The position numbers and the translations under genes were made by a program. 64,000 nt of DNA, taken from NCBI RefSeq assembly GCF_014205275.1, contig NZ_JACHND010000001.1:4402001-4466000 (forward strand). The letters run 5' to 3'. The notes beneath the pieces are model-generated. The model saw only the letters and a list, made by a program, of their open reading frames with translations, did no database searches and had not been told where the DNA came from. This DNA is from Sphaerisporangium siamense. Lineage in GTDB: Bacteria; Actinomycetota; Actinomycetes; Streptosporangiales; Streptosporangiaceae. This document shows positions 17,010-43,616 of this stretch, in pieces (the stretch's first letter is position 1; every line of letters starts with the position of its first letter).

Positions 17010-17477
17010 ATGATGGCCGCTCCCAAGCCCAAGCCGCCGGCGCTGAAGCTGATCGAGGGCCGCGCGCCGGGCCGGGACTCGGGCGGCCGGTCGGTGAAGC
17101 CGTCGCCGGGGTTCGTGCGCCTGCCTCCGGATGCGCCGGACTGGTTGCCTGAGGAGGCGCGAGCGGAGTGGGAGCGGGTGGTGCCGGAGCTCGCGCGGCT
17201 CCAGCTCACCAAGCCGGTGGACCGGGCCGCGCTCACGGCGTACGTGCTGACGTGGGACCGGCTGGTGCGCGCGCAGAAGGAGATGCTCGCCGACGGCGGG
17301 TCGGTGCTCGGCAGGAACAGCCAGGGCCGGGTGCGGCATCCGGCGGTCGCGGTGATCGAGGCCGCGTCGAAGGAACTCAGGAGCTGGTGCGCCGAGTTCG
17401 GGTTCACGCCGTCCGCTGAGAACCGCCTGAGCACCCCGGAGGCGGACGATGGCGAGGAAGACAACCCGTTCGCCTGA
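17010..17477 (+). CDS. terS: Terminase small subunit, P27 family
   Basis: A 155-aa protein; GTGAGGAGCTG precedes the ATG at 17010 (ATG 17013 is equally possible). The typical P27 layout is present: a basic start (KPKPPALKLIEG), PPDAPDWLPEEARAEWERVV, a helix ending in LTWDRLVRAQ and the HPAVAVIEAASKELRSW block. The small subunit recognises the packaging site and regulates the large subunit ATPase. It overlaps the large subunit by 29 nt. Confidence 0.9.
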   Translation: MMAAPKPKPPALKLIEGRAPGRDSGGRSVKPSPGFVRLPPDAPDWLPEEARAEWERVVPELARLQLTKPVDRAALTAYVLTWDRLVRAQKEMLADGGSVLGRNSQGRVRHPAVAVIEAASKELRSWCAEFGFTPSAENRLSTPEADDGEEDNPFA

Positions 17478-19563: not shown

Positions 19564-21021
19564 ATGAGGTCGATCTTCGTGCCGCCGCGGCGCGCGGTCG
19601 AAGCCACCCCGGCACAGCTGGTGGCATCGGGGGCCTCGGGCGGGTACGGCACAGACCCGGTCGACGGCGATTACGGATGGCGGCGCGCGGGCACCGCGGG
19701 GCGCGAGGTGCCGTATTGGACCCAGGAGCGCGCCCGCCAGTACTCGGTGGCGGCCTACCGCACCAACCCCATGGCGCGGGCCGTGATCGACACCTACACC
19801 GCGTTCTGCGTGGGGGACAAGGGCGTCACCTTCCAGGCGAACAACCCCGCGGTCCGCGGCGTGGTCGAGGAGTTCTGGAGCGACCCGCGCAACAACCTCG
19901 CGGGCATTCAGGAGATCTTCCTGCGCGATCAGCTGATCATGGGGGAGACGCTCCTGGAGCTCATGCGCGGCCAGACCTCGGGCGTGGTGCGGTACTCGCC
20001 GGTGGACACCACCGGCGTCACGGACGTGACCCTCGTGGCGGGCAACCCGCTGTGGCCCGACGAGGTCGTGATCGGCCTGGCGGACGGCACCGAGAAGCGG
20101 CTGAAGGTTGCCGCGGTCGACGACGGCACCGGGCTGCGCGACGGGGCGGCGCAATGGTGGACGCCGTTCAAGACGTTGATCACCGACCGGCGCAGCATGC
20201 CGTTCATGATGCCGATCCTCGACTGGCTGGACAGCTACGACAACGTCCTGTCCAACCTGATCGACCGCACCGCGCTCGGTCGCTACCTGGTGTGGGACGT
20301 CACCGTGAGCGGCGGCCAGACCGAGGTGGATGAGTTCATCGCCGCCCGGGGTGGCACCCACGTGCCCCGGTCGGGGTCGGTCGAGGTGCACAACGAGTCG
20401 GTCACCTGGGAGGCCAAGACCGCCAACACCGGCAGCTACGAGGACACCAACGCCGCGCGCAACGTGCTCACCCTGGTGTCGGCGGGTGCCGGGCTCGCCA
20501 AGACGTGGCTGGCCGAGCCGGAGGACGCCAACCGCGCCACCTCGCTGACCATGGCCGAGCCGGTGCGCCGGCGCGTGCAGGGTGTCCAGCGGCAGTGGCT
20601 GGGCTACCAGACCGAGCTGACGCGGTACGCGGTGGACCGGGCCGTGGCCGCGCGCCGGCTCCCGCGCACGGTGCAGGCGTCCGACCCGCGCACGGGAGAG
20701 ACCTACCAGATCCCGGCGGCCATGGCGGTGACGGTGACCGGGCCCGAGGTGGCCGCGGCCGATGCCGAGCTGACGGCCAACGTCCTGCTCAACCTGTCCA
20801 CCGGCCTGGAGAAGCTCGTGGCATCCGGCGTGCTGACCCGCGAGGCCGCCGGCGTCGCCGCGAGGAAGGCGTGGGAGGACTTCGTCGGCGTCCCCTACTC
20901 GGCCGACCTCGGCACACCGGACGCCAACCCCGGTGACATCGCCACGGCGGTGGACGACGCCAAGAGCCCGAAACTAGGCCGCCTCGCGGTCGTGGGAGGA
21001 GCAGCGAATGACGACGCGTGA
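19564..21021 (+). CDS. Portal protein
   Basis: A 485-aa portal subunit; twelve copies form the head vertex through which DNA passes. Seen: YSVAAYRTNPMARAVIDTYT, a typical N-terminal stem element, then AFCVGDKGVTFQ, LIMGETLLELM, the clip region NVLSNLIDRT, and the C-terminal helix region with AEPVRRRVQGVQRQ. Length is usual for the family. The preceding GGCTCGTGAGGCCGCG is a weak Shine-Dalgarno. The stop overlaps the next gene by 14 nt. Confidence 0.93.
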   Translation: MRSIFVPPRRAVEATPAQLVASGASGGYGTDPVDGDYGWRRAGTAGREVPYWTQERARQYSVAAYRTNPMARAVIDTYTAFCVGDKGVTFQANNPAVRGVVEEFWSDPRNNLAGIQEIFLRDQLIMGETLLELMRGQTSGVVRYSPVDTTGVTDVTLVAGNPLWPDEVVIGLADGTEKRLKVAAVDDGTGLRDGAAQWWTPFKTLITDRRSMPFMMPILDWLDSYDNVLSNLIDRTALGRYLVWDVTVSGGQTEVDEFIAARGGTHVPRSGSVEVHNESVTWEAKTANTGSYEDTNAARNVLTLVSAGAGLAKTWLAEPEDANRATSLTMAEPVRRRVQGVQRQWLGYQTELTRYAVDRAVAARRLPRTVQASDPRTGETYQIPAAMAVTVTGPEVAAADAELTANVLLNLSTGLEKLVASGVLTREAAGVAARKAWEDFVGVPYSADLGTPDANPGDIATAVDDAKSPKLGRLAVVGGAANDDA

Positions 21022-21388
21022 GGAAGCCGCCCGCGCGATGGGCGTCGCGCCGCGCGAGGTTAACTCCGTCACCGACACCCAGGACGGCGCCGTGGCGCTG
21101 ATGGCCAGCGGCGCGCGCCGCCTCATCGGCGATGACGGCTACTACGCCCTCGACGACCACGCCGACAACGCCCACCTGCGCCGGGCCGAGCTGACGGAAC
21201 CGGACATCGGGGGTCCGGATGCCGACGGCCAGGACGACGCACCCGAACAGGTGCCGGACGGCACCGTCGAGCAGGTCATGACCTGGGTCGGTGAGGACGC
21301 CGGGCGTGCGCGGGCCGCACTGGAGGCCGAGGAATCCCGGCCGAGCCCGCGCAAGAGCCTGATCACCCGGCTGGAGGAACTGCTGTGA
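21008..21388 (+). CDS. Hypothetical protein between portal and capsid genes
   Basis: A 126-aa acidic protein; GGGAGGAGCAGCG precedes ATG 21008. It has a short N-terminal domain (ARAMGVAPREVNSVTDTQDG) and a disordered, Asp-rich C-terminus. Acidic proteins here may assist head assembly, but no family is recognised. It overlaps the capsid fusion gene by 4 nt. Confidence 0.6.
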   Translation: MTTREEAARAMGVAPREVNSVTDTQDGAVALMASGARRLIGDDGYYALDDHADNAHLRRAELTEPDIGGPDADGQDDAPEQVPDGTVEQVMTWVGEDAGRARAALEAEESRPSPRKSLITRLEELL

Positions 21389-23994
21389 CGTACACGACGC
21401 ACGGTCATTGGATCGGCGCTGGCCCGCCCATCGAGCCCAGCCCGCAGCTCGTCGCCCGGTGCGGCGGGCCGGGGGTCTGTGGGCAGTGCAACCAGGAGGC
21501 GGCAACCGCCGCGTTCCATGGCAGCAACTTCCCCGCCAGCATGCCGGTGTGCCCGACCTGCGGTCAGACCGTCATGAGCGTCGTCCGGGTCACCGAGTCG
21601 ACGTCGGCGCCGGAACGACCCGCGACCGAAGCGATGATCGACGGCGCCCGGTCGTTCGACGACATCCGCGAGCTCGTCCGCCGGGCCCTGCGCGAGCGGC
21701 TGCGCTCGGCGCTCGGCTCCGACGTCTACGTCTGGGTGTACATCTCCGACCTCACCACGACCGCCGTGGTGTACGCAGCCGGGGATGACGACCTGTACCA
21801 GTGCGACTACATGATCGACGCCGCCGGCGAGGTGACGCTCGGCGACCCGGTCAAGGTGGTCCGCACCTACGCTCCCTCGCCCGCCGGCGCGCCCGCCGCC
21901 GAGCCGGACGACGGCGCGGCCGAGCTCGTGGAGACCGACCGTGTCGCGGCCCGCGCCGACGCCCGGGTCATCGAGGCCAAGGGCAGCACGCCGGACGGCG
22001 GGCGGATTTACCGGGTGCGGATGATCGAGGCGGGCGACTCCAAGAACGGCCGACGCTACCCGCAGGCCGTGCTGGCGGCAGCCGCCGCTCGGTACGAGGG
22101 TGCGAAGGCGTACGACCGGCACCGGGACCTGGCCGAGCTCAAGAGCGGCACGATCGTCGGTTTGGTCGGAGCGTACCGGTCCGTCGAGGCGGCCGACGAT
22201 GGCCTGTACGCCGACCTGCACCTGCTCCCGTCCGCCACGCACGCCGCCGAGGCCCTTGATGCCGCGCTCGCCGGTCAGGCCGAGGGCCTGGACCCGCTCA
22301 TCGGTCTCAGCCACGACGTCTACGCGACGTTCAAATCGGTCACCGAGAACGGCGTGCAGCTGCAGGAAGCCACCGCCATCACGAAGGTCAACTCGGTCGA
22401 CCTGGTCTCGGACCCGGCGGCCGGAGGCAAGGCGTCGCGGGTCGTCGCGAACGTCGACCCCACCGAAACGGGCGCGGAGCCCGACGAAGCAAAGGAGGCA
22501 CCCGTGCCCGCAACCAAGGAGGAAATCCTCGCCGCGTTCAAGGACGCGACCGACGAGGAGCTCGCGGCGGTCGGCCTGGCCAAGGCCGCCACCACCGAGA
22601 CCACCACGCCCACGCCGCCCGCGCCGCCCAAGCAGGAGGAGCAGAAGGCCGTCGAGGTCGCCCAGCCCAAGGGCAGCTTCCTCGGGCAGCTACTCATCCG
22701 GTCCAAGGTCGAGGACGCCGGCCTGCCCGCCTCGGCGGTCGAGGCGGTCGCCGCGGCCCTGCCCGACATGGTGACCGAGAGCGCGGTGGACGCGCAGATC
22801 GCCACGGTGAAGTCGGGCCTGGCGATCCTGGAGCGCGCCTCCCTCACCCCGACGGTGACGGTGAAGGTGACACAGGAGGACCGCGACAAGAAGGTCGCGG
22901 CGCTGGACTCGTTCTTCTCGGGGAACTTCTCCGAGGGCTTCAACAGCTTCCGGCAGGCGTTCGTCGAAATCACCGGCCGCCAGCCGAAGAGCTGGGACGA
23001 GGACTTCTCGCGCACGATGCTCCGCGAGTCCTTCGGCGGCGGCTTCGACTCGGGATTCCGGGCCGAGGAGTCGCTCGACTCCGGCTCGTGGGCGCAGGTG
23101 CTCGGCGACTCGATCACCCGGCGCATGATGGCGATGTACCAGCTGCCGAACCTGCAGTCCTGGCGGCGGGTCGTCTCCAGCATCGTGCCGGTGAACGACT
23201 TCCGCACCCAGCGGATCGGCCGGATCGGCGGCTACGGATCCCTGCCGGTCGTCAACGAAGGCGCGCCGTACCAGCCCCTCACCTCTCCCGGGGACGAGGA
23301 GGCCACCTACGCGATCAACAAGAAGGGTGGCACGGAGGATCTGACCCTGGAGATGATCGCCAACGACGACGTGCGGAAGATCTCCCAGATCCCCACCAAG
23401 CTCGGCCGGGCGGCGGCGCAGACCCTGCTCCGGTTCGTCTGGGGCTTCCTGTCCACCAACGCGACCTGCACCTACGACGGCACCGCGCTGTTCCACGCCA
23501 GCCACGGCAACAACATCACCACCTCGGTGCTGTCGCAGTCCGCGCTCACCGTCGCCCGCAGGCGGATGCGCGAGCAGGTCGCCTACGGCGACCCCAACGA
23601 GGTCCTCGACAACACTCCGCGCCTGCTCATCGTCCCCTCCGCGCTGGAGGAGCTCGCCTGGACGCTGGTGACCTCCGCGGTGTCGGTCGGCGCCGCCACC
23701 ACCGACGCCGAGCTGTCGCGCACGGCGCCGAACCTGCACCAGAGCATGGAGTTTCTCGTGCTGTCGTTCCTGACCGACCCCTCGGACTGGTTCCTGTCGG
23801 CCGACCCGCAGGCCGTGCCGACCTTGGAGATCGGCTTCTACCTCGGCCGCCAGGACCCGGAGCTGTTCACGCAGGCCGACGCCACCTCAGGGTCGATGTT
23901 CAACGCCGACAAGATGACGCTGAAGATCCGCCACATCTACTCCGGCACGATCCTGGACCACCGCGGCCTGTACGCCGGCTACGGCGTCGCCTGA
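21385..23994 (+). CDS. Fused prohead protease and major capsid protein
   Basis: An 869-aa polyprotein. Residues 26-59 contain a Cys cluster (C26, C32, C35, C56, C59). Residues 91-163 form a small alpha/beta domain. Residues 195-345 match a prohead protease, with H246 after AYD, LIGLSHDVYA (S309) and VNSVDLVSDPAAGG. Residues 355-410 are a charged Pro/Glu-rich linker, probably scaffold. From about 415 on is the capsid domain, ending in KMTLKIRHIYSGTILDHRG, HK97-fold and closest in feel to Mu gpT-type heads. The protease presumably frees the capsid part during maturation. GTG start 21385. Confidence 0.85.
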   Translation: MTYTTHGHWIGAGPPIEPSPQLVARCGGPGVCGQCNQEAATAAFHGSNFPASMPVCPTCGQTVMSVVRVTESTSAPERPATEAMIDGARSFDDIRELVRRALRERLRSALGSDVYVWVYISDLTTTAVVYAAGDDDLYQCDYMIDAAGEVTLGDPVKVVRTYAPSPAGAPAAEPDDGAAELVETDRVAARADARVIEAKGSTPDGGRIYRVRMIEAGDSKNGRRYPQAVLAAAAARYEGAKAYDRHRDLAELKSGTIVGLVGAYRSVEAADDGLYADLHLLPSATHAAEALDAALAGQAEGLDPLIGLSHDVYATFKSVTENGVQLQEATAITKVNSVDLVSDPAAGGKASRVVANVDPTETGAEPDEAKEAPVPATKEEILAAFKDATDEELAAVGLAKAATTETTTPTPPAPPKQEEQKAVEVAQPKGSFLGQLLIRSKVEDAGLPASAVEAVAAALPDMVTESAVDAQIATVKSGLAILERASLTPTVTVKVTQEDRDKKVAALDSFFSGNFSEGFNSFRQAFVEITGRQPKSWDEDFSRTMLRESFGGGFDSGFRAEESLDSGSWAQVLGDSITRRMMAMYQLPNLQSWRRVVSSIVPVNDFRTQRIGRIGGYGSLPVVNEGAPYQPLTSPGDEEATYAINKKGGTEDLTLEMIANDDVRKISQIPTKLGRAAAQTLLRFVWGFLSTNATCTYDGTALFHASHGNNITTSVLSQSALTVARRRMREQVAYGDPNEVLDNTPRLLIVPSALEELAWTLVTSAVSVGAATTDAELSRTAPNLHQSMEFLVLSFLTDPSDWFLSADPQAVPTLEIGFYLGRQDPELFTQADATSGSMFNADKMTLKIRHIYSGTILDHRGLYAGYGVA

Positions 23995-24026: not shown

Positions 24027-24437
24027 GTGACGCAGCTCAAGGAGCTCAGCGGCGACCTGATCTTCCCGATCCCCGTCCCCGGCCAGTCGACCGCCGCCAC
24101 ACCGGATGAGTTCACGGGGATCATCGCCCCGTTCAACATGAAGATCACCGCCGTGCGGTGGATCCCCAAGGGGGCCGTCACCGCCAACGGCACCAACTAC
24201 TTCACCCTCACCCTGCGCAACCGCAAGGCCGACGCCTCCGGCACCGCGCAGCCGGCCACCCGCTCCTACGCCGCCACCAACAGCTCGGCCCTGGTGCCAG
24301 AGTCCATGACCCTGTCCGCCACGGCCGCGGACCTGAACATCGCGGCCGGGGACCACCTCACCGTCGAGAAGCTCGTCACCGCGTCGGGGCTGGCGATGCC
24401 CGCCGGCACCGTCCAGGTGTACGCGCAGGCCCGATGA
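24027..24437 (+). CDS. Probable head decoration or virion structural protein
   Basis: A 136-aa protein starting GTG 24027 after CCAGGAGCACATC. All-beta pattern with regular Thr-rich strands (NYFTLTLRNRKADASG; DHLTVEKLVTAS). Its place directly after the major capsid gene, its size and strand content fit a capsid-stabilising or decoration protein; no sequence motif confirms this. Confidence 0.6.
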   Translation: MTQLKELSGDLIFPIPVPGQSTAATPDEFTGIIAPFNMKITAVRWIPKGAVTANGTNYFTLTLRNRKADASGTAQPATRSYAATNSSALVPESMTLSATAADLNIAAGDHLTVEKLVTASGLAMPAGTVQVYAQAR

Positions 24438-24718
24438 TGGCGCTGGTCCGCCCAGTCCCGCTGACCGGCTCCGACCAGCCCGTCAGCGCGACCCCGGCCA
24501 TCTACCGCGGGTTCACCGTCCGCGAGACCGCCGGCGCCACGGCCGTGGTGCGGATCTTCGACCACGCCTCCGCGGCCTCAGGCACGGTCCTGGAGGAGAT
24601 CACGCTCGCGGCGAACGGGTCGGCCCGCGAGCTGTACGGAGCCGGCTTGTTGACCACGAACGGCATCTACGTCCAGATCGTCTCCGGGGCTGTGTCCGGC
24701 AGCATCAGGATCGGCTGA
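24434..24718 (+). CDS. Small beta-rich structural protein
   Basis: A 94-aa protein, ATG 24434 overlapping the upstream stop. The sequence is a single predicted beta sandwich (FTVRETAGATAVVRIFDHAS, ending VQIVSGAVSGSIRIG). Such small jelly-roll proteins occur beside capsid genes in actinophages and may be virion components. Confidence 0.55.
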   Translation: MMALVRPVPLTGSDQPVSATPAIYRGFTVRETAGATAVVRIFDHASAASGTVLEEITLAANGSARELYGAGLLTTNGIYVQIVSGAVSGSIRIG

Positions 24719-24730: not shown

Positions 24731-25354
24731 GTGAGCGACATCGCACGTGCCGTCGAAGGAGTGGCGGTCGGCGTGGGCACCGCGCTGACCGACGCACTCC
24801 ATGGCACCACACGCTGGCTGGTCGAGCGATGGGACGCCGAGCAGACAACCTGGGTTCGGCGCCGCTCGGGCCTGGCTGCGCCGGCGGGCGCCGACTTCGC
24901 CCGGCTCGGAGTTAGGCCGTACGCCACCTCGGAGGTGATGGGCAACCTCATCACCAACAACGGCTGGACGCGCCTGATGAACCTGCTGACCAACCAGGGC
25001 GGCACGCAGGCCCTGGACGCCACGCACGTGCGCATCGGCGTGGGCAACTCCAACACGGCCGAGGCGTACACCGACACCGACCTCGCCGCGGCGGCGGGCG
25101 CCTCGAACCGCTACTTCCAGCCGGTGTCCGGCGCGGGCACGCTCGGCACCAGGACGTTGAGCTTCGCGGCCACGTTCGGCACGGCCGACGGCAACTTCGC
25201 CTGGAATGAGTTCGGGCTCGACATCACCTCGGGCACGGCGGCGGGCGGCACTACCGTGGGCGCGACGCTGTTCAACAGGAAAGCCGGTATCGCGCAGGGC
25301 ACCAAGGCGTCCGGCCAGACCTGGACGGCCACGGCCACCCTGACCTTCACCTAA
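24731..25354 (+). CDS. Phage structural protein, head region
   Basis: A 207-aa protein; GAGGAAGGAAACAC precedes GTG 24731. After a helical start it contains LITNNGWTRLMNLLTNQGG and THVRIGVGNSNTAEAYTDTD, a pattern recurring in siphovirus virion proteins, then a beta sandwich with an Asn/Glu/Phe motif (FAWNEFGLDIT). Probably a minor virion or tail-fibre-like protein; the exact role is not known. Confidence 0.6.
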   Translation: MSDIARAVEGVAVGVGTALTDALHGTTRWLVERWDAEQTTWVRRRSGLAAPAGADFARLGVRPYATSEVMGNLITNNGWTRLMNLLTNQGGTQALDATHVRIGVGNSNTAEAYTDTDLAAAAGASNRYFQPVSGAGTLGTRTLSFAATFGTADGNFAWNEFGLDITSGTAAGGTTVGATLFNRKAGIAQGTKASGQTWTATATLTFT

Positions 25355-25367
25355 GCGGGAGGGGAGC

Positions 25368-25673
25368 ATGGCCTACCTCGACCAGGCCGCGCTGGCCGCC
25401 GACGCCAACTTCCAACTGAAGATCAAAGTAGGGATCGCCACGGCGGCCGTCCAGATCGCCGGCGAGGACAAGGCGAGCCTGTCCGACGCGGTCTACACCA
25501 AGCGGCAGGCCCTGGCGACCAGCGTGCTGCTCGAAAGCCCTCGCTGGGTCGAGCGCTTCGCATGGGCCGTGGCGTCGAACGCCGCCGTCACCAGCGGCTC
25601 ATCGGACTCCGACATCCAATTCACGATCAACGCGCAATGGAATGATCTCGCCGGTGTGACCGGGCTGGACTAG
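25368..25673 (+). CDS. Small virion-region protein, 101 aa
   Basis: ATG 25368 with GCGGGAGGGGAGC upstream. Helix-rich (LDQAALAADANFQLKIKVG) with a C-terminal strand. It resembles small proteins found between capsid and connector genes. Ends 3 nt before the next gene. No family name assigned. Confidence 0.55.
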   Translation: MAYLDQAALAADANFQLKIKVGIATAAVQIAGEDKASLSDAVYTKRQALATSVLLESPRWVERFAWAVASNAAVTSGSSDSDIQFTINAQWNDLAGVTGLD

Positions 25674-25676
25674 CCG

Positions 25677-27485
25677 GTGGCCGCGCCGACGTTCGTCGAC
25701 GAGGTCGAAGGGCCCTCGTGGACGACCCTGACCACCAGCAAGGTCTCCTCCTCGATCGGCGCCCTGGCAGGTGACCGGCTGGTCGTCGTAGCGGTCACGG
25801 CCGACGCCGGGACCACGCTGACCGGCATCTCTGGCGGGTCGCTGACGTGGACGTTGCAGCAGTCGGTCGCGGTGAGCCAGTACTGCACGGTGTACGCCTG
25901 GACGGCGACCGTGGACGCCGACAAGACGATGAGCGTCACCGTGACGGCGTCCAACGCGCTGAACCAGTGGGGCCTGTCGATGTCGCGGTTCCGCGACTCC
26001 GACGGGTTCGGCGTGAGCAGCAAGACCAACGTCTCCTCCGGTGCGCCGTCGCTGGCGTTGACCACGACGCAGGACAACTCCGCGATCGTGGTCATCTCGG
26101 CCGACTGGAGCGCCACATCCGGTACCTCAAGGGTCTGGCGCACGATCAACACGATCACGCCGACCTTGGCCAACGGACTGGAGCGGGTCTACCAGCTGTC
26201 GTCCGGCCAGTACACCGCCTACTCGGCCTACTGGCCGGACTCGGGGACCGCCGGAGCGAAGACCACGGGCCTGAGCGCGCCGTCCGGACAGAAGTACGCG
26301 ATCATCGCGCTGGAAGTCCTTGGCACCGCCTCCACCGCCAAACCGCTGGCGGACAGTGGTTCGGCCGCTGAGGTGTTGCCCGTCTCGGCATCCAACGCGC
26401 CCGAGGACACGGGCAACACCACCGAGGCACTGTCCGCGGCGGCAGCGGCCTCGCCCGGCGACGTGGGCTCCGCGGGCGATCTCCTGACGGCGGCCGTCTC
26501 CACGGCCCTGGCCGACACCGGCGGCGCCGACGACGCCGCCACGGTGGCCAGGGTGACCGGACTGCCGGACACTGCCGCAGCCGCGGACGCTGTCGGGGCA
26601 ACCGGCATCACAGGGCTTTCCGACGCGGGCACCTCAGCCGAGGCGCTGACGCTCCAGGCCGCCGGAGCCGTCGCAGACACCGCTTCGGCGGGCGAGCTCC
26701 TCACACCAGCGGTGGCCGCGCCGGTTGGCGACCTCGGCACGGTGGGCGAGGCTCTGGCCGCCTCCGCGGCCGTACCGCTCGCCGACATGGGCGCGGCCGG
26801 GGACGACTCCTCGACCGGGACGCCGAAGCCCCTCGCCGACGCCGCAACTGGTGGCGAGGGCCTGGCGGTCGCCGCGGCGGCGGTGCTGCACCTGTCGGCG
26901 GCGGGTGCCGAGAGCCTCACGGCCAGCGCAACGGCGACACTGAGCGATGGCGCCACCGCGGCCGACGACGCGAGCACGGGAACGCCGAAGCCTCTGACCG
27001 ACGGCGTGACAGCCGCCGAGACGCTGACGGCCTCCTCGGTCACCACCCTGCCCGAGGCCGGGGCCGCGACCGACGCACCCTCGGTCATCACGACGCTCCT
27101 GCTCACCGATATGGGCTCGGCGGTGGACGCGGCCTCGCTCGGCACCGCGCCCGTGTTGCCGGATGCGGGTACCAGTGCTGAGGCGATGATCGCCTCCGCG
27201 CAGGTGCCGCTCCTGGACGCGGCGGTGATGGCGGAACTCGCGGCCATTGCGGCTGCCACGCCGCTCGGCGACAGCGGATCCGCAGGGGAAGCGCTCGGCG
27301 CCCGGATGCCGGTCCTGCTGGGCGACGGTGGGGTAGGCGCCGACGCGCTCGTGGGGGCGGCGCTGAAGGTGTTCCTGGAGGCGTTCAGCAGCGGTGCTGT
27401 GGTGCGTCCGGGCCTGGATGCGGGTGTGACGGTCCTGGCCAGCATGGAGGAGGCCGGCACAGTGGTGTCGGGCCTGGAAACCTAA
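25677..27485 (+). CDS. Large repeat protein with 19 x 18-residue units
   Basis: A 602-aa protein from GTG 25677. Residues 1-215 form a beta-sandwich domain (VVVAVTADAGTTLTG; MSVTVTASNALNQWGLSMS; YAIIALEVLG). Residues 224-565 are exactly 19 consecutive 18-residue units without indels, pattern L-x-D-x-G-x-A-x-E/D-x-L then seven small residues, often ending in Pro. A 37-residue C-terminal cap follows. The same beta domain and repeat occur in the 29467 gene. Lying among head and connector genes, it may form head or neck fibres. Repeat function unknown. Confidence 0.75.
   Translation: MAAPTFVDEVEGPSWTTLTTSKVSSSIGALAGDRLVVVAVTADAGTTLTGISGGSLTWTLQQSVAVSQYCTVYAWTATVDADKTMSVTVTASNALNQWGLSMSRFRDSDGFGVSSKTNVSSGAPSLALTTTQDNSAIVVISADWSATSGTSRVWRTINTITPTLANGLERVYQLSSGQYTAYSAYWPDSGTAGAKTTGLSAPSGQKYAIIALEVLGTASTAKPLADSGSAAEVLPVSASNAPEDTGNTTEALSAAAAASPGDVGSAGDLLTAAVSTALADTGGADDAATVARVTGLPDTAAAADAVGATGITGLSDAGTSAEALTLQAAGAVADTASAGELLTPAVAAPVGDLGTVGEALAASAAVPLADMGAAGDDSSTGTPKPLADAATGGEGLAVAAAAVLHLSAAGAESLTASATATLSDGATAADDASTGTPKPLTDGVTAAETLTASSVTTLPEAGAATDAPSVITTLLLTDMGSAVDAASLGTAPVLPDAGTSAEAMIASAQVPLLDAAVMAELAAIAAATPLGDSGSAGEALGARMPVLLGDGGVGADALVGAALKVFLEAFSSGAVVRPGLDAGVTVLASMEEAGTVVSGLET
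26346..27371 (+). repeat. Protein-level 54-bp repeat array, 19 units
   Basis: Nineteen in-phase 54-bp units encode residues 224-565 of the 602-aa protein. The DNA is strongly diverged between units while Leu1, Asp3, Gly5, Ala7 and Glu/Asp9 recur. The array is therefore old and under selection for register, not a recent slippage product. Confidence 0.8.
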
Positions 27486-27493
27486 GGGGGCAC

Positions 27494-28495
27494 ATGACCG
27501 CGACCCGGGTGCTGCGTACCGCGTCGGCGACCTTGCAGCGGACGTTCTATCTGGGGGAGACCCCGGCGGACTCCTCGACGCCGGTGACCGTTACCGTGAC
27601 GGACGCTACCGGCGCCGTCGTCACCACCGGGACCGCCACCTCCTCAGGGCCGGACACGGGCACCTACCAGTACACCTTGCCGGGGCAGGCACAGCTGGCC
27701 CGGCTCACTGCGGCGTGGGCGGCGACGATCGGCGGCACGGCCGTGAGCGCCGAGGAGCCGGTCGAGGTCGTCGGCGGGTTCTTCTTCACTCTGGCGGAGG
27801 CTCGCGCCTCAGATGAGTCGCTGGCCGACACCACCCGTTATCCGACGGCCGCCATGGCGGCGGCGCGGCAGGACACCGAGGCCGAGTGCGAGGCCATCTG
27901 CGGACGCGCATTCGTCCCCCGCTACCGGCTGATCACACTGGACGGCTCGGGCACCAGCGACCTCCTGCTGCCGGACGGCGGTGACGAACTGGTCGCGGGC
28001 AGCATGCTGCGCGGCGTGCGGACTGTGCGCTCGGCCCGGATCGCCCCTCGCGTGGGGTTCGCCTTCACGCCACTCACCACGGGACAGCTGGCCGCGCTGG
28101 CCGTGACACGGGACGGCATGCTGCGCCGCACCGACGGCGGCATCTGGACCGAGGGCGTGCGCAACGTCGTGCTGGAATACGAGTACGGCTCCGACGCGCC
28201 GCCGGCCGAAATACGGCGCGCGGCCCTGCAGCGGTTCCGCTGGCTGCTGACCGCCCCGCGCAGCGGTATCCCCGACCGGGCCACGTCATTCCAGGCGGCC
28301 GAGGGCGGGGTGTACGAACTGGACACGGCGGGGGCGTCCCGGACGGGAATCCCCGACGTGGATGCCGCCTACCTGCGGTACGCGCGGGGTGGACAGGGGG
28401 ACGGGCAGTCCGGGGGACGGAGCGGCCGTCCCGCCTCCCGGCCGCTGAACTTCGATCCCCAGCACTACTCGCTGTTTCATGGAGGTGTCCGGTGA
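27494..28495 (+). CDS. Head-tail connector protein
   Basis: A 333-aa protein; AAGGGGGCAC precedes ATG 27494. Residues 1-90 form an Ig-like beta domain (VTVTVTDATGAVVTTGTAT). From residue 98 the adaptor helices begin (FTLAEARASDESLADTTRYP; AAARQDTEAECEAICGRAFV), matching connector proteins that extend the portal ring. The tail (FDPQHYSLFHGG) is the usual C-terminus of this family in actinophages. Confidence 0.8.
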   Translation: MTATRVLRTASATLQRTFYLGETPADSSTPVTVTVTDATGAVVTTGTATSSGPDTGTYQYTLPGQAQLARLTAAWAATIGGTAVSAEEPVEVVGGFFFTLAEARASDESLADTTRYPTAAMAAARQDTEAECEAICGRAFVPRYRLITLDGSGTSDLLLPDGGDELVAGSMLRGVRTVRSARIAPRVGFAFTPLTTGQLAALAVTRDGMLRRTDGGIWTEGVRNVVLEYEYGSDAPPAEIRRAALQRFRWLLTAPRSGIPDRATSFQAAEGGVYELDTAGASRTGIPDVDAAYLRYARGGQGDGQSGGRSGRPASRPLNFDPQHYSLFHGGVR

Positions 28496-29466: not shown

Positions 29467-31371
29467 GTGCCGTTGCCGTCCTTCCGCAGCGTGTCACAGG
29501 CGTCATCCGGCACCGCGGCCACCTTCGCAGTCTCCAAGCCCACTGGCACCGTGCAGGGCGACATGCTGGTGCTCTGCCACGCCGCCGACATCGGCAGCCT
29601 CGCGGAGATGGGCACCCCGAGCGGCGGAGCCACCTGGCAGTTGCTGGACTCGGCGCAGTGGCCGACCAACACCGACGCCGGAATGAAGATCTGGTGGAAA
29701 CTCGCCGGCGCAAGCGAGCCCACCAGCTACGGGCTGACGCAGAACTCCGGTGCCGACGGCACGGCCACCGTCGTGTGCCTCCAGGACCCGGGCGCGGGCA
29801 CACCGGTCGTCGCGCACACCGGCGGCACGACCAGCACGACCAGCATCCCCACCCCGTCGACGACCCCGAACGGCAGCAACGACTTCGAGCTCCGCTTCGC
29901 CGGCGCGTCCAGCGGCAACGGCTCGGCGACGTCCTTCACGCCTCCGGCTGGCTTCACCGAGCGATCGGATGTCACATCGGGCAGCCAGTACGCGCCGCAG
30001 TCGTGCGCGACGCGAACGCTGTCGAGCGGCGGCGCGACCGGCACGCAGAACTTCACCTCGGCGAACGCCCTGGTCAAGTACCTCGGATTCACGGTCAACG
30101 TCCCTTCCGGTCCCACTACCAAGAGCCTTAACGATGCGGGTGCGGCGAGTGACGGCCTGTCGGTGGCTCCTAGCGAATCGGTGTTCCAGGGATACGTGAC
30201 CGGCATTTCCTCGGGATCCTCCACCACTCATACGGTGGCCAAGCCCGCTGGGACCAATCTCGGGGACGTGCTCATCGCGGCGATCCTCACCAACAACGGT
30301 GACACCTCAGCGGATTCGATTACCGGCGGCTCGGCCTGGTCGAAGGTGGGGGGAGACACCTGGTCGGTGGGCTCGACATTCGGCGGCATGACGATCTGGA
30401 AAAAGACCGCCGGGGGGAGCGAACCGTCCACCTACACGGTGACCGTGTCGAACAACGAGGCGTCGTCAGTGGTCATGCGGATCTTCGGATCCTCCGGTGG
30501 CGCGGTCACCTCCGACCACGTGAAGAGTAACGCCAGCACGTTGACCTTCACAACGCCGTCCACCTCGCCATCCGTTCCCAGCACCGAGCTGCGGATTATC
30601 GCCGCCCGCGAACTCAATTCGGCAGGGAACTTCAACGCGACAGCCGGATTCACTGAACGGATCGATACGTTCAGCGGATTCACCACCAAGTTCTTCCTTG
30701 CCACGCGCAATGCTCCTGCGGGTGCTACAGGCACTGCGAATTTCATCCGCGACTCTGTCAACTGGAGCGACTGGCAGGCGTGGACGATCAACGTCCCCGA
30801 CAATGTGACGCTGGCCAGCCTTGCGGAGTCCGGCGCTGGCACCGAATCCATCTCGCTAGCGATCTCGCCGTCTATCTCCGATGGGGCAACGGCTGCTGAG
30901 CTGCTGGCGGTCACCGCCAGTGTTGCGATCATCGAATCGGCGGCATCAGTTCAGAGCCTCGCCGAAGTGGTGGTCCTGTCGATCGCTGAGGCGGGGGCGG
31001 CGGCCGAAACGATCCTCGCAGGAGTCGCGAAAAGCGCCGGCGACGCGGCTATGGCAACCGACGGCCTGACCGCATCGACCACGCCGGCCCTGGCACAGAG
31101 CGGTACCGCTGTTGACGCGTTGGCCGGCACCGCAGGCGTCAACGTCAGTCAGAGCGCAGTCGCGGCCGACACGCTGATCAGCTCTTCGGTGTCGTTCAAG
31201 GCGCTGGCCGAAGCTGCTGCGGCGGCCGACATCCTGGCCGGAGTCATGGAACGCAACTTCGGTCCGGCCTGGTCACCCCGCCGAAGGTGGTCAACTGGGC
31301 CGCTCCGGAGAGGGGGGTCGGCCGGCACACCCTCCCGCCGCTACTCCGCCGGACCGCCCCGCACGCGATAG
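29467..31371 (+). CDS. Second 18-residue-repeat protein with duplicated beta domain
   Basis: A 634-aa protein from GTG 29467. Two homologous beta domains (about residues 5-205 and 234-434) share SKPTGTVQGDMLVL / AKPAGTNLGDVLIA, GFTERxD, GTxNF and end in VNVPS / INVPD. One 18-residue unit (211-228) separates them. Seven further units in constant register cover 442-567, and an eighth follows after a 2-residue shift. The C-terminus is Arg-rich. It shares domain and repeat with the 25677 product and flanks the connector genes, so both are probably related virion appendage proteins. Confidence 0.75.
   Translation: MPLPSFRSVSQASSGTAATFAVSKPTGTVQGDMLVLCHAADIGSLAEMGTPSGGATWQLLDSAQWPTNTDAGMKIWWKLAGASEPTSYGLTQNSGADGTATVVCLQDPGAGTPVVAHTGGTTSTTSIPTPSTTPNGSNDFELRFAGASSGNGSATSFTPPAGFTERSDVTSGSQYAPQSCATRTLSSGGATGTQNFTSANALVKYLGFTVNVPSGPTTKSLNDAGAASDGLSVAPSESVFQGYVTGISSGSSTTHTVAKPAGTNLGDVLIAAILTNNGDTSADSITGGSAWSKVGGDTWSVGSTFGGMTIWKKTAGGSEPSTYTVTVSNNEASSVVMRIFGSSGGAVTSDHVKSNASTLTFTTPSTSPSVPSTELRIIAARELNSAGNFNATAGFTERIDTFSGFTTKFFLATRNAPAGATGTANFIRDSVNWSDWQAWTINVPDNVTLASLAESGAGTESISLAISPSISDGATAAELLAVTASVAIIESAASVQSLAEVVVLSIAEAGAAAETILAGVAKSAGDAAMATDGLTASTTPALAQSGTAVDALAGTAGVNVSQSAVAADTLISSSVSFKALAEAAAAADILAGVMERNFGPAWSPRRRWSTGPLRRGGSAGTPSRRYSAGPPRTR
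30790..31167 (+). repeat. Protein-level 54-bp repeat array, 7 units
   Basis: Seven in-phase 54-bp units encode residues 442-567 of the 634-aa protein (for example LAESGAGTESISLAISPS and LAQSGTAVDALAGTAGVN). One solitary unit lies earlier at residues 211-228. Same consensus as the array at 26346-27371. Confidence 0.75.
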
Positions 31372-31380: not shown

Positions 31381-31668
31381 TTGGATCCGATCTCCTCGCT
31401 GTCCAAGGAGTACATCTACAGCTTCGTCGAGGGCGTGGCCGGCACTGAGACCGTTGAGGTCGCCTGCGTCCAGACAGCCGAGCCGACCTCCGGCGACTGG
31501 AAGCCCGCGGGGTGGGCCAACGTCACTCCGGCGGGCGCGGACGCGCGGATCCTCATCGGCCCGGGCACCACGCTCGCCCTGGCCGATGGCACATACCAGA
31601 TGTGGGTCCGGGTCACCGGCACCACCGAGCAGCCCGTGATGTACGCCGGGCCCGTCGTCATCACCTGA
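31381..31668 (+). CDS. Small virion-region protein, 95 aa
   Basis: TTG 31381 after ATAGGAGGCCACC, a strong Shine-Dalgarno. All-beta, with TYQMWVRVTGTTEQPVMYAG at the end, a pattern of small neck- or tail-associated proteins in actinophages. Function not established. Confidence 0.6.
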   Translation: MDPISSLSKEYIYSFVEGVAGTETVEVACVQTAEPTSGDWKPAGWANVTPAGADARILIGPGTTLALADGTYQMWVRVTGTTEQPVMYAGPVVIT

Positions 31669-32435: not shown

Positions 32436-32920
32436 TGCCAGCAACCCCGCTCGCCGCGGTGACCCGCTACTGGAGCGTCGCAGTCAACAAGTGGTACTTC
32501 GTTCCGGCGATCAGCAACAAGAGCGCGCCCACCCGGCTCGAACTCAACGCCGGCACCGACCTCACGGGGGAGGTCGCCGACTCCTCCGGGTGGACGACCA
32601 CCGGCGACACCATCGAGGCCCCCGACGGCAACTCGGTGTTCATCGCCCAGGTCGCCGGGCCGGTGAAGGCGGACGACTCCTCGCTGACCATCTACGCCGA
32701 CCCGACCGGTAATGATGCCCGGACCCTGCTGCCGCGCGGCACGACGGGGTTCGTCGTCCGCCTCGGCGGCGGAGACACGGCCGGTCGAAAGATGGACGTC
32801 TTCCCGATCAGGGTCAAGACGGTCGGCAAGCAGTACGGCGGCACGGCCACCGAACCGGCGAAGTTGGAGATCTCCTTCGCGATCACCTCCACGCCCGCCG
32901 AAGACGTCACGATCCCGTAA
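32435..32920 (+). CDS. Major tail tube protein
   Basis: A 161-aa protein starting at ATG 32435, overlapping the upstream stop. Typical tail-tube layout: a short N-terminal arm, VADSSGWTTTGDTIEAPDG, SLTIYADPTGNDAR, a loop, then VFPIRVKTVGKQYGG and SFAITSTPAEDVTIP, the final immunoglobulin-like strands. It polymerises into the tail tube around the tape measure. It directly precedes the chaperone genes, the canonical order. Confidence 0.85.
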   Translation: MPATPLAAVTRYWSVAVNKWYFVPAISNKSAPTRLELNAGTDLTGEVADSSGWTTTGDTIEAPDGNSVFIAQVAGPVKADDSSLTIYADPTGNDARTLLPRGTTGFVVRLGGGDTAGRKMDVFPIRVKTVGKQYGGTATEPAKLEISFAITSTPAEDVTIP

Positions 32921-32930
32921 GGAGCTGACC

Positions 32931-33329
32931 TTGACTTTCCTCTCCAAGGACGACCTGTGGGAGGTCTCCAGTGAGATCCCCTACGACGACGTGCGGCTCG
33001 TCGACCCGGACGGCAAGTACCGCGGCACCATGCGGGTGCGCGGCATGACCGCCGATGAGGCGCAGGTGTGGCAGAACGCCCAGATGGTCACCGTCGGGAA
33101 CAAGCAGAGGGTGGATCGCAGGGACGCCGCGTCCAAGCTCGTGCTGCTGACGGTGGTGAAGGAGGACTTCTCACCGTTCTTCGAGAAGTCCGACCTACTG
33201 AAGATCCGCAAGATGCCCGCGTGGATCCTCAACGCCCTCACCGAGGCCGCGATCAAGCAATCCGGGATGAGTGAGGACGCCAAAGTCGAGATCGAAGAGG
33301 ATTTCGATCCCGCCCAGAGCGAGGACTAG
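32931..33329 (+). CDS. Tail assembly chaperone (G-like)
   Basis: A 132-aa protein starting TTG 32931 after AAGGAGCTGACC. Seen: FLSKDDLWEVSSEIPYDDV, VDPDGKYRGTMRVRGMTADE, KMPAWILNALTEAAIKQSG. Such proteins coat the tape measure before tube polymerisation. In lambda a frameshift extends G into GT. Here the next chaperone is in the -1 frame, open upstream from 33275, so a G-T fusion is possible. Confidence 0.8.
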   Translation: MTFLSKDDLWEVSSEIPYDDVRLVDPDGKYRGTMRVRGMTADEAQVWQNAQMVTVGNKQRVDRRDAASKLVLLTVVKEDFSPFFEKSDLLKIRKMPAWILNALTEAAIKQSGMSEDAKVEIEEDFDPAQSED

Positions 33330-33358: not shown

Positions 33359-33628
33359 ATGACCGTCGCCGAGCTGCTGCGCCGCATGTCCGCTCGCGAG
33401 TTCGCCGAGTGGGCCGTCTACGAGGGGCTGTACGGGCCGATCGGCCCCGGCCGGGATGACGCCCTGGCCGCCCTCATCGCCTTCCATGTGGTGAACGTGA
33501 TGCGGGACTCCTCCAAGGGGCCCGATCTGAAACCTGCCGACTTCCTCCCCGCGTGGGAGCCCCCCACCGAGGAGGCCGGCGTTGGCGAACGCGATCAAGA
33601 ACCTCCTGATCCGCCTGACCGTTTCTGA
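33359..33628 (+). CDS. Tail assembly chaperone (T-like)
   Basis: An 89-aa protein if translated alone from ATG 33359. MTVAELLRRMSAREFAEWAV is the typical T-domain start. In the same frame upstream lies RLALALGG, which usually precedes that block, arguing that translation enters from the G gene by a -1 shift rather than at this ATG. I see no canonical slippery heptamer in the overlap. It overlaps the tape-measure start by 47 nt. Confidence 0.7.
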   Translation: MTVAELLRRMSAREFAEWAVYEGLYGPIGPGRDDALAALIAFHVVNVMRDSSKGPDLKPADFLPAWEPPTEEAGVGERDQEPPDPPDRF

Positions 33629-36600
33629 GAACACCGACCGCGGGATCGCCAAGGTCAACCGGAACCTGGAGCAGGCGGCCGACCGAGCGGACCGGGCAAA
33701 CAAGTCCTTCGGTGGACTCCACCTCAGCCTTGGCCGCCTTGGTGATGCCGCCTCTGGCCTCGGCGGTCACCTGGCCGGCGTAGGCCGTCAGCTCGGGTCG
33801 CTGGCCGTCGGAGTGACCGCGTCGGTGGCTAAGTACGCCGCGGCGGCCGGGGCGATGGCGACGTTAGCTGCCGGCGCCGCGTCGGCTGCGTCGAGCGTGC
33901 TGTCCCTGGTCGCCGCTCTGGCTCCGGCGGCAGGAGCGCTCGCTGCGGTGCCGGGCGCTGTTGCGGGCTTCATCGCCATCAACGCCGTGCTGAAGCTGAG
34001 CCTCTACGCGGTGGGCGACGCCATGAAGGCCGCCTACGACAACGACGCCAAGAAGTTCGAGTCCGCGCTGGAGAAGCTGACGCCGGCCGCGCGCGACTTC
34101 GCTCAGGAGTTCAAAGCCACCGTCCCGGCGATGAAGGAATTCCAGCAGGCCGCCCAGACGGGATTCTTCTCCCAGCTCAACGGGAGCCTCGGCCACTTCG
34201 TCGATCTCCTGCGCGGCACTCAGCCCTGGATTGAAGGGCTGGCGAACAACCTTGGCTACTTCGCCCGCCAGGTGCTGGTTTTCGCCACAGCCGAGAACAG
34301 CGTCCGCCAGTTCAACTCGATTCTCGGTAGCACCAGTGGAGTCCTGACGGGCCTCGGGGGCGGGCTTCAGCCTCTGCTCGCCGGGTTCCTGGATCTCGCC
34401 GTTGTCGGCGCCAACTTCCTGCGCGGTCTGTCAATCGGCATCGGCGATGCTTCGGCCCGGTTCGGCGCGTGGCTGTCGCAGATCTCGGGTTCTGGTCAGG
34501 CCCTTCAGTGGATGAACGACGCGCTGGCGGTGTTCAAGCAGCTCGGCGCGATCCTGGGCGACGTCGGTGGGATCGCAAGGTCGGTTTTCACCGCGATGCA
34601 GACGGCTGGCACGGGCGCGCTCGGCGTTGTCGGTCAACTGCTCGACCGGGTGAATACGTTCCTGAAGTCGGCGCAGGGCCAGCAAATGCTGGTCGCGATC
34701 TTCCAGGCGCTTGCTCAAGTCGGGGCGGCTTTATCGCCGATATTCGTGGCGCTGGCCGGGGCCATCGCCGCGATCGCCCCTCAGATCGCCGCCATAGCCA
34801 CCGTGGTGGGACCGGTGCTCACCACGGCGATCAACGCCATCGGTCCCGCCATCGCTGCTCTCGGACCGGGGATCACTGCGGTGATCGGCGGGATCGGCCA
34901 GGCGGTCCAGGCGCTGGCCCCCGCGCTGCTGCCGCTCGGCCATGCCATCGGCGCCGTGTTCACGACTCTCGCGCCAGTGCTGGCCGCCATCGGTCCCGCG
35001 ATCGCTTCGCTGCTGCCCGGAATTGAGGCGTTCGGCAAGGCACTGGCCACGGGGATCGCCGCTCTGGCACCCGCACTCGGACCTATCGGCCAGGCGATCT
35101 CCGGTGTTCTGGTCGCGGTGTCACCGCTCCTTCCGGTGATCGGCCAGCTTGCCGCGTTGATCGCAACCACGCTAGCGGCGGGAGTGCAGGCCATCCTTCC
35201 CGCCATCCGGACGCTGGTCGGGGCGTTCGCGCAGATCATCCAAGCTCTGTCGCCGGTGCTGCCAGTGATCGGACAGCTGGCCGTGCTGATCGCCACCAGC
35301 CTCACCAGCGGCGTGCAGGCGATCCTGCCGTCGATCCAGCTGCTAGTCGGCGCCTTCGCCCAGACTGTTCAGGCGCTGTCGCCGGTGATCCCCCTGCTGA
35401 TCGGCCTGGCCGCGACGCTGATCAACTCGCTGGTGCCCGCGCTGGCGCCGCTGCTGCCGCAGATCGCTCAGCTGATCACTCAGCTGGTGTCCGGGCTCGT
35501 CCCCGCCATCACGCCGCTGATCCCGATCGTCGCGCAGATCGCGGCCACCATCGGCCAGTTCTTCGTCTCAGCCATCGGCCTGCTGGTTCAGGCGATCACG
35601 CCGCTGTTGCCGGTGATCTCGCAGATGACCCAGATGGTGGGTAAGGCGCTGCTCGACGCGCTGATCCAGATCGCCCCGTCGCTCCTTTCGGTGATCGGCG
35701 CCTTCCTCCAGCTGCTGCCCGCGCTGACGCCGATCCTGCCCGCGCTGGGGCAGCTGGTGGTCGCGCTCCTGCCGGTCGCCGTCGAACTGATCAAGGCGCT
35801 GGCGCCGGTCGCAGTCGCGCTGGTGTCGGCGATCGCCCAGCTGGTCGCCGCGATCACCCCGCTGCTGCCCGTGCTGGCCGGCGTGATCGCATGGATAGCG
35901 CCGCTCATCACCTGGGTCGTGAAGCTCGCCGGGTCGATCCTGGAGAAGCTGATCCCCGTCTTCGCCTGGCTGGTCGACAAGGTGACGTGGGCGATCAAAC
36001 TGGTCGTCGGGATCTTCCAATGGCTTTACGACACGTTGATCGGCCACAGCATCATCCCCGACCTGATCAACGGGATCACGAAGTGGATCTCTGGCCTGCC
36101 CGCCATGTTCGCCGACTGGTTCGGCAGGGCCAAGGACTGGGCCATCGCCAAGTTCAACGACCTGCTCAACTGGGTCCGAGGCCTGCCAGGGCAGATCCTC
36201 GGCGCGCTGAGCAACATGGGCAACCTGCTCGGCAGCGTCGGCCACAACCTGATCGTCGGGTTCTGGAACGGCATGGTCGGCATGTTCGACTGGCTGAAGA
36301 ACTCGATCTACAACTTCTTCTCGTCGATGATGCCGGACTGGGTGAAGCAGGCCCTCGGCATCGCCTCACCGAGCAAGGTGTTCGCCGCCCTCGGAAAGTT
36401 CATCCCCGCCGGCCTGGCGATGGGCATCGACGCCGCGTCGGGTCTGGTGGCCAGCGCCGCGGAGCGCATGGCCGCCGTGGCCACGATCAGCGTGCAGCCT
36501 GCACTGTCCACGGCGGGCGGGCCGCCGGTGCTCGCCGCTACCGGCTCGGCGGCCCCGGTGGCCGTCGGCGCAGGAGGCCGGACGGGTAGCGGGCCCATCA

Positions 36601-42830: not shown

Positions 42831-43616
42831 ATGTCCATCGACCTGATCACCCGCAAGGCGTGGGGCGCCCGGCCGCCGAAAGGCAGCTACTCCGCGCTGT
42901 CCTCGACCAAGGGCGTCAAGGTCCACTACACCGGCGACCGTGTCGACCCGGGGCTCCTGGATGACCATGACCGGTGCGTCGCCAAGGTGCGGCAGGTGCA
43001 GGCGTTCCACATGAACGGCAACGGCTGGATCGATATCGGCTACAGCATGGTCGCCTGCCCGCACCGCAAGGTCTTCGTCGGCCGCGGCCCTGGGCACGTG
43101 TGCGCGGCCAACGGGGCCGGCCTGAATTCCGCCCACTACGCCGTCCTGGCCCTCGTCGGCAACTCCGGGCTCGTCGAGCCGAACGACGAGCTGCTGCTCG
43201 GCGTGCTGGACGCGATCGACTACCTGCGCGAGCACGGCGGTGCCGGCCACGAGATCAAGGGACACCGCGACGGCTACGCCACCGACTGCCCCGGGGGTGC
43301 GCTGTACGCGTGGGTGCGCAAGGGAGCGCCGCGCCCTGGCGGGAAGTCGCCTGCGCCGACCATCCCGGCCAGCGGCACCAAGTCGCCGCTCTTCCCCGGT
43401 CGGCTGCTCGCCTACCCGCCGGTGGTCCGCGGCGAGGACGTGCGCGTCTGGCAGACGCAGATGAAGCGCCGCGGCTGGGCCATCGACGTGGACGGCGCCT
43501 ACGGGGCCGCCTCGCGCGCGGTGTGCGTGGCGTTCCAGAAGGAGAAGGGCCTGGGTGCCGACGGCGTTGTCGGCCGTGACACCTGGCGCGCGGCGTTCGA
43601 GCTGCCGGTCACCTGA
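42831..43616 (+). CDS. Endolysin, N-acetylmuramoyl-L-alanine amidase with PG-binding domain
   Basis: A 261-aa protein. Residues 1-165 form an amidase_2/PGRP domain: VKVHYTG (zinc His), the core GWIDIGYSMVACPHRKVFVG, and GHRDGYATDCPGG with the second His and the Cys zinc ligands. A Pro-rich linker follows. Residues 195-258 are a PG_binding_1 domain (VRGEDVRVWQTQMKRRG; FQKEKGLGADGVVGRDTW). It cuts the amide bond between muramic acid and the stem peptide. No signal peptide, so a holin is needed. Confidence 0.93.
   Translation: MSIDLITRKAWGARPPKGSYSALSSTKGVKVHYTGDRVDPGLLDDHDRCVAKVRQVQAFHMNGNGWIDIGYSMVACPHRKVFVGRGPGHVCAANGAGLNSAHYAVLALVGNSGLVEPNDELLLGVLDAIDYLREHGGAGHEIKGHRDGYATDCPGGALYAWVRKGAPRPGGKSPAPTIPASGTKSPLFPGRLLAYPPVVRGEDVRVWQTQMKRRGWAIDVDGAYGAASRAVCVAFQKEKGLGADGVVGRDTWRAAFELPVT

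Follow-up and report, generated by a model that had tools for sequence, protein, structure and literature searches.

The prophage and its repeat-protein genes

The window, by which we mean the whole stretch of 64,000 nucleotides analyzed here, spans positions 4402001–4466000 of an 8.5-Mb genome and carries a siphophage-type prophage that IMG/VR lists as a viral contig of 54.8 kb. The genes and features considered below are as follows:

17449–19245, terminase
19564–21021, portal
21385–23994, + strand, major capsid/protease fusion (phrog_29592, 1.9e-260; phrog_4523, 3.7e-46)
24434–24718, + strand, gene of ~94 aa (start codon inferred), found directly before the adaptor in L021, L022 and L023 (tblastn)
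24731–25354, + strand, 207-aa partner gene of unknown function (phrog_23653/phrog_5417)
25368–25673, + strand, 101-aa gene of the same cassette; a 67% identical copy lies directly before the paralogue in prophage 2 (L016)
25677–27485, + strand, 602-aa repeat protein, GTG start
25677–26339, + strand, predicted N-terminal beta-sandwich head (residues 1–221)
26340–27365, + strand, acidic array of 19 × 18 residues (residues 222–563)
27366–27482, + strand, 39-residue C-terminal tail beyond the array
27494–28495, + strand, head-tail adaptor (phrog_30828, 2.2e-86; phrog_442, 4.5e-11)
29467–31371, + strand, 634-aa second repeat protein (phrog_3329, unknown function)
31381–31668, + strand, 95-aa gene with homologues near the repeat genes of relatives (tblastn; two places in L004, and L017, L019, L043 and L044)
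32712–33329, tail assembly chaperone
33582–36728, tape measure
37897–40722, J-like tail protein
42831–43616, endolysin

The gene for the 602-aa protein lies between the capsid and connector genes, as originally noted. Its reading frame is open along the full length, and GC at codon positions 1, 2 and 3 (0.67, 0.62 and 0.88) is as in the neighboring phage genes. Since an antisense reading frame at 26228–27460 has a likewise high third-position GC (0.86), codon-position GC alone cannot exclude it, and the assignment rests more on conservation of the protein in relatives, on which ground a reading-frame artefact was rejected. Searching Pfam and PHROG with the protein gave nothing at E ≤ 1, and by eye its N-terminus has no signal peptide.

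In L021, L022 and L023, whose capsid and adaptor stretches are ~50–62% identical to those of the window, the adaptor comes very soon after the ~94-aa gene, and the 207-aa, 101-aa and 602-aa genes have no homologue (tblastn, 1e-4); the three genes at 24731–27485 therefore look like an optional cassette. The 634-aa protein carries the same 18-residue repeat and is thus a second carrier in this prophage, with a long N-terminal part, an 18-mer at residue 219, a broken 18-mer array at ~450–595 and a basic C-terminal tail. Another prophage in this genome, L016, encodes a paralogue, P0002, with a head 64% identical to that of the window protein; the window capsid, portal and terminase have no tblastn match in L016. 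Tandem repeats also occur at the DNA level elsewhere in the window, namely a 129-base repeat within the tape measure gene (35115–35387) and GC-rich repeats with units of 42, 18 and 12 bases at 55064–55219 and 58746–58829.

The 19-unit array

Residues 222–563 are made of exactly 19 units of 18 residues without an indel. Self-identity at lags of 54, 36 and 18 residues (0.29, 0.28 and 0.26) exceeds the maximum of 0.203 reached in 2000 shuffles over lags 2–60. This is the array of the original prediction, which had placed it at 26346–27371, a shift of two residues, and had described its units as diverged in DNA; mean pairwise identity is indeed 0.49 at the DNA level (range 0.35–0.70) and 0.30 at the protein level. 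Position 3 is Leu in 15 of the 19 units and otherwise Val or Pro, position 5 is Asp in 17 with one Glu and one Leu, position 7 is Gly in 12 and Ala in 6, position 11 is Glu or Asp throughout, and position 13 is Leu in 11. Ala, Gly, Ser and Thr make up 59% of the array, which has no aromatic residues and 19 Pro in 342 residues. The Pro that was said to end many units does recur, but corresponds to position 2 of the register used here, where it is found in 7 of 19 units.

A repeat family linked to a partner gene

We define the 18-residue acidic phage repeat as a tandem L-x-[DE]-x-[GA]-x-[GA]-x-[DE]-x-[LIV] with a modal spacing of 18, and the window array falls within this definition. The 207-aa partner has matches in four INPHARED records, all of Rhodococcus phages, and near the partner homologue the repeat is carried by Madraxi gp8, REQ1 Orf64 and, more weakly, Jflix2 gp6, all annotated as hypothetical. 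The repeat-bearing portions of these three proteins reach 51.2, 45.0 and 11.6 bits, respectively, and the best of 200 shuffled versions of each reaches 7.5, −1.6 and −10.6; taken over its full length, Jflix2 gp6 stays below significance, with 5.2e-05 for its best stretch. Residues 5–206 of Madraxi gp8 match a virion structural protein (phrog_2804, 4.6e-19). Elsewhere at the Madraxi locus (L054), the genes at 1301–2092 and 3220–4257, annotated as minor tail protein, resemble by eye a serine protease and, with its peptidase and LysM-like parts, a cell-wall hydrolase.

A search with the partner gene brought in 80 IMG/VR loci, of 110 relatives found, and 69 of the 80 contain a repeat-matching open reading frame (71 in all; plus strand, ≥200 aa, E ≤ 1e-5). 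Counted among the 80 loci are the provirus of the window itself and a small number of near-duplicates; of the 11 loci without a match, several are contigs that are short or truncated. In a shuffled control of the repeat profile, 0 of 730 reading frames matched. The nearest repeat gene lies downstream of the partner in 48 loci and upstream in 21, never more than 2591 bases away. Among loci found independently of the partner, it is present in L017, L019, L043 and L044 (tblastn), in the contig of L004 (as L070) and in the window; it was not found in L016 and L005 (tblastn), where the repeats are 20-mers, or in L018, a contig of 4.2 kb. At the level of gene neighborhood, these counts show that the repeat gene is linked to the 207-aa partner gene.

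An iterative search of the 71 repeat proteins gave 812 units, 2–30 per protein, at a threshold of 8 bits, which admitted 3 units in 71 shuffled proteins. An earlier scan had used 7 bits, which is below the 95% point of the shuffled maxima (10), and single outlying units from it are therefore uncertain. Successive units are spaced by 18 residues in 474, by 19 in 117 and by 20 in 57 of 741 cases; the invariant spacing that was claimed thus holds for the 602-aa protein but not for the wider family, in which 18 is simply the most frequent value. Each of the 65 arrays of five or more units has a net acidic composition, and the C-terminal tails of 16–149 aa are net basic in 39 of 60 proteins, though not in the window protein. 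By eye, many of these tails (e.g. those of L094, L068 and L059) contain tandem repeats of 8–9 residues rich in Arg and aromatic residues or Thr. Basic 24- or 20-residue repeat proteins co-occur with the acidic 18-mer protein at L061:11202–13016, L086:10412–11767 and L070:13665–15701; the idea that every phage encodes one acidic and one basic repeat protein was dropped, since these three of the 80 loci are the clear cases.

In line with the original prediction, which knew of no named fold with this repeat, the units matched no named repeat family in the scans made. In the proteins scanned, which for whole-protein scans were 7 of the 71 viral reading frames, no Pfam model lay on the repeat above its cut-off, and the PHROG overlaps were phrog_12240 (0.0026) and phrog_1696. 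The latter is a "major tail protein" profile of 2079 positions, of which 1699–1827 match L129 (7.1e-18) and 1690–1798 match L079 (1.2e-4); the 602-aa protein matches no PHROG. With tblastn against INPHARED, no match was obtained for P0001, P0002, the 634-aa protein, the LamG protein of L019, the adaptor, the 111-aa protein of L043 or the repeat proteins of L094, L129 and L116; the low-complexity filter may mask such repeats, and a terminase query did match. Genome surveys found the repeat in 4 of 150 genomes of the family and 4 of 297 of the order, the genome of the window being counted in both, and in 1 of 394 of the class and 1 of 396 of the phylum, in each case the genome of the window only; these counts are lower bounds, as the initial pass scores few candidates. 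The 20-mer profile of the paralogue (A4) was found in its own genome only (1 of 297). Word searches of the literature outside subscription journals, a weak probe, listed no paper that describes the repeat or contains its motif strings.

Unit pattern, selection and predicted fold

Conservation within the unit alternates: among 128 units taken from the window and the relatives found first, odd positions 3–15 carry 1.69 bits and even positions 4–14 carry 0.41. The columns of 730 distinct units from the viral set also mirror about position 8, with a score of 0.70 against −0.95 for the next center; none of 5000 random column orders reaches 0.70, and 0.7% of parity-preserving orders do. Ka/Ks is 0.00–0.34 at positions 3, 5, 7, 9, 11 and 13 and 0.09–0.75 at the other unit positions, the core value being the lower in 8 of 8 informative pairs, and homologous heads give 0.12–0.32, similar to the array core. 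Twelve pairs were attempted, of which two with stops were dropped and two were near identical and uninformative, and the pairs are not all independent. With gaps counted over the whole protein, four pairs align gap-free; L135/L136 has gaps of 19, 38 and 94 residues, which are near whole units, and L119/L135 has additional gaps of one and two residues. By these estimates the core unit positions are under purifying selection, which backs the selection on the repeat that had been proposed.

An AlphaFold prediction of ten units from 14 gap-free rows reached a pLDDT of 57 and a pTM of 0.42, the other four models being lower. This low-confidence model has a strand near positions 11–17 in all ten units, a strand of at least three residues near positions 1–5 in six, and no helix. 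Foldseek found no structure similar to the array model at E ≤ 0.001. Given these confidence values and the lack of a significant fold match, disorder of the array is possible. Covariation between units was rejected as evidence of contacts, since non-adjacent units show the same signal. Two alignments of the study, A2 and A6, were set aside owing to poor alignment of shifted or short copies.

Exchange of heads and shafts

The head (residues 1–221), modeled by AlphaFold from an alignment (A5) with three relatives of 64%, 74% and 43% identity, is predicted to be a beta-sandwich (pLDDT 74, pTM 0.77) with a weak loop at residues 154–171. Foldseek against viral models (BFVD) gave 55 matches at E ≤ 1e-3, and among the best 50 several carry the name minor tail protein and come from Mycobacterium or Gordonia phages (e.g. 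Tweety A5YJY9, Hawkeye, Gaia; E 2.6e-6 to 3.8e-4, TMq ~0.6–0.7). Sequence identity to these is 10–17%, and the 18-mer array is outside the match. Against the PDB there was no match at E ≤ 1e-3, the best being a collagen-binding domain at 6.7e-3. The head model, for residues 1–221 only, thus has the beta-sandwich fold of phage minor-tail-type proteins. Tweety gp54, described in PMC2884959 as having a tetrapeptide repeat, was set aside as a distinct thing; it was another Tweety protein that matched the head fold.

The same head as in the window protein is followed by a basic 20-residue repeat in the IMG/VR relative L004 (43 Lys and Arg, 8 Asp and Glu in 443 residues) and by an acidic one, D-D-x-A-G-L-x-D, also of 20 residues, in P0002; the shafts of the window protein and L004 have no blastp match at E ≤ 10. 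The window head is kept (64%, 74%) in two relatives with differing shafts, which is opposite to what a typical variable receptor tip would show. L004 also has a GDSL/SGNH-hydrolase-like gene between two repeat-protein genes (3234–4943; 7.5e-07, just below the curated cut-off).

The 18-mer array in turn stands behind a LamG head in L019 (Pfam, 9.2e-10) and behind a CBM_4_9 head in L043 (1e-5, marginally above the curated cut-off). The array and tail of L017b and L019b are identical at 184 of 228 residues (81%) without a gap, while their N-terminal domains have no blastp match better than E 0.26, and we read this pair as a head swap. In 53 of the 71 viral repeat proteins, 70 aa or more precede the first unit, and these N-terminal regions fall into 29 blastp clusters, which may hide remote kinship; the remaining 18 have fewer than 70 aa ahead of the first unit, so that a head is not obligatory. 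Among 29 representatives of the N-terminal regions, Pfam at E ≤ 0.01 gave Laminin_G_3 in three, DUF4082 in two and single matches, some of which fall on one protein (L132), to BclA_C, TNF, CBM_4_9, SusF_SusE, a polysaccharide-lyase-like domain, DUF7743 and DUF7257; at least 17 have no match at this threshold.

In L017 and L019, both from genomes of the same family, a gene with weak likeness to GT2 (E 0.017, under the cut-off) lies between the capsid and repeat genes, as does an NAD-dependent epimerase gene in L017 (1.2e-33), with a similar reading frame in L019 by eye. With such genes nearby, the Ser/Thr-rich arrays might be glycosylated.

Gene order and position on the particle

The cassette lies between major capsid protein and adaptor in the window, and before the terminase in L004, L044 (terminase by eye) and the Rhodococcus phages. 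Twelve of the 80 loci, that of the window among them, have a capsid homologue on the upstream side of the repeat gene; a terminase is downstream in 4, and a tape measure is upstream in 1 (tblastn); by eye, several further repeat genes follow tape-measure-like reading frames and others precede them. In 45 of the 80 loci the partner and the repeat gene were accompanied by none of the markers searched for. Placement beside head genes is not general in the family and, because the position of the cassette differs among loci, the attachment site cannot be read from gene order alone; the head or neck site originally deduced from it does not follow.

Comparison with known systems

The Rhodococcus proteins are the nearest named relatives, with the same 18-mer family and a partner homologue nearby, and differ in their heads (phrog_2804 in Madraxi, Gly_rich_2 in REQ1), in their C-terminal region, in a spacing of mostly 17–19, and in a cassette before the terminase.

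The only PDB sequence match below E 0.1, besides the composition-biased 9e5c, is region IV of the Marinomonas ice adhesin MpAFP (3p4g), which we take to be a Ca2+ RTX-like beta-solenoid. Solenoids of the MpAFP kind are parallel, with Ca2+ at each turn. The motif D-A-G-T-G-N-D-x-I of MpAFP, in a repeat of ~19 residues as judged from the alignment, compares with D-x-G-x-G/A-x-D-x-L in the 18-residue units of the window. The repeat profile matches 3p4g at E 8e-5 (A1; best stretch 0.013) and 0.0049 (A7), a score that 0 of 300 column-permuted decoys reached. The reversed profile scores 20.1 bits against 24.5 forward, nearly as well because the unit is near-palindromic, and the Madraxi units alone score 10.6 forward and 10.9 reversed. 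The resemblance is thus a structural lead only, and directional homology is not supported by these scores. RTX motifs are GGxGxDxUx nonapeptides; an RTX/HemolysinCabind beta-roll was rejected, as the consensus has no GG and no Pfam family matched at E ≤ 1. Kinship to 9e5c was likewise rejected, the per-stretch bias exceeding the score; its chain 0q, named LIM zinc-binding domain-containing protein, has an Ala/Glu-rich 18-residue repeat of its own.

The triple beta-spiral of adenovirus-type shafts is homotrimeric, with a repeat of ~15 residues against 18–20 in the acidic repeat family. A coiled coil is disfavored by Pro/Gly placement, by the alternation and by the helix-free low-confidence model, as the case first made against a plain alpha-helical coil from Pro and Gly had anticipated. 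Phage phi29 gp8.5 is a head-attached trimer of base and shaft, with a helix-turn-helix supercoil as shaft and the N-terminal domain as anchor (PMC6542822). Its gene adjoins the capsid gene, judged by number only, as in the window; a head fiber of this type was rejected for the window protein, whose array is modeled as all-beta at low confidence and has Pro/Gly-rich units. The HFTV1 turret head protein is a head-mounted appendage with a proposed carbohydrate-binding module, and the available part of PMC12494034 describes no repeat of the 18-mer type in it.

Interpretation

As far as gene and protein comparisons tell, the repeat protein has a virion-gene context, homologues and swapped modules. 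Based on these observations, we lean toward the view that the phage particle carries the 602-aa protein as a stalked binding protein of modular build, the stalk being of beta structure. The N-terminal beta-sandwich would be a globular, exchangeable and probably ligand-binding head, and the 19 acidic 18-mers would form a beta-structured stalk. As the unit pattern and the low-confidence model suggest, each unit may contribute two short strands (~1–5 and 11–17) around a turn at positions 7–9, with rows of conserved Leu/Val and Asp/Glu on one face of the stalk. The tie to the virion would be made by the C-terminal end or by the co-encoded 207-aa partner, and the protein would anchor the phage on a surface polymer, either earlier than the tail tip does or in addition to it. 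Where a solenoid or a fiber shaft had been envisaged, a stalk- or shaft-like role is the best reading; the array model, all-beta at low confidence, does not separate the fiber from the solenoid.

Where on the particle such a protein sits is a separate matter. That it is a side tail fiber or tail-tip appendage, its gene order an accident of cassette insertion, departs from our account in location only, is compatible with it, and in our estimate falls a little short of an even chance. The likeness of the head domain to annotated minor tail proteins, the gene that follows the tape measure in one locus (tblastn) and in several more by eye, and the three relatives that lack the cassette between otherwise similar capsid and adaptor stretches all point that way, to be set against the 12 of 80 loci with a capsid homologue upstream, 45 others showing no recognized marker. 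A challenge to the beta stalk itself, though one we consider unlikely, is that the array is an intrinsically disordered acidic spacer, an entropic bristle that would only tether or repel, with its spacing kept by duplication and not by folding. The abundance of small residues without aromatics, the AlphaFold pLDDT of 57 and the family spacing of 18–20 would suit such a spacer; the gap-free register across strongly diverged units, the alternation of conserved positions and core Ka/Ks values about as low as those of the heads argue against it.

An alpha-helical rod, in which 18 residues would make exactly five turns, is suggested by the Ala-rich array and by the match of the profile to the Ala-rich eukaryotic 9e5c, the latter weakened by a per-stretch bias above its score. 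We find it very improbable given the 19 Pro residues, the Gly that 12 of the 19 units have at position 7, the i,i+2 alternation, a model without helix and family spacings of 19 and 20. We give similarly little credence to a surface or secreted host protein acquired by lysogenic conversion, for which one could cite the occurrence of repeat proteins in prophages and the stalked lectin architecture common in cell adhesins; the gene sits among co-oriented virion genes, no signal peptide is seen by eye at the start, and relatives occur in isolated Rhodococcus phages.

A bolder version of the beta stalk is conceivable, if doubtful. The 18-mer would be a new structural repeat, a pseudo-palindromic unit mirrored about position 8 (V1/V15, L3/L13, D5/D11, G7/G9) in which two equivalent half-strands assemble into an unbroken beta ribbon or solenoid along which Asp/Glu ladders, possibly ion-filled, run continuously, and it would serve many unrelated phages as a universal plug-in stalk for any lectin-like head, traded with the 207-aa partner as a cassette.

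The modular phage adhesin is a kind already known; the 18-mer repeat itself is undescribed as far as our searches reach. Found behind many different heads, the same unnamed repeat looks like an interchangeable stalk for virus surface proteins. If this is right, it would name a widespread and apparently undescribed building block of phage surface proteins, join dozens of unannotated proteins under one architecture, and make the partner gene a handle for finding more members. The acquisition and swapping of surface-binding heads by phages would become testable, and protein designers could take an interest in a regular acidic beta stalk whose length can be adjusted.
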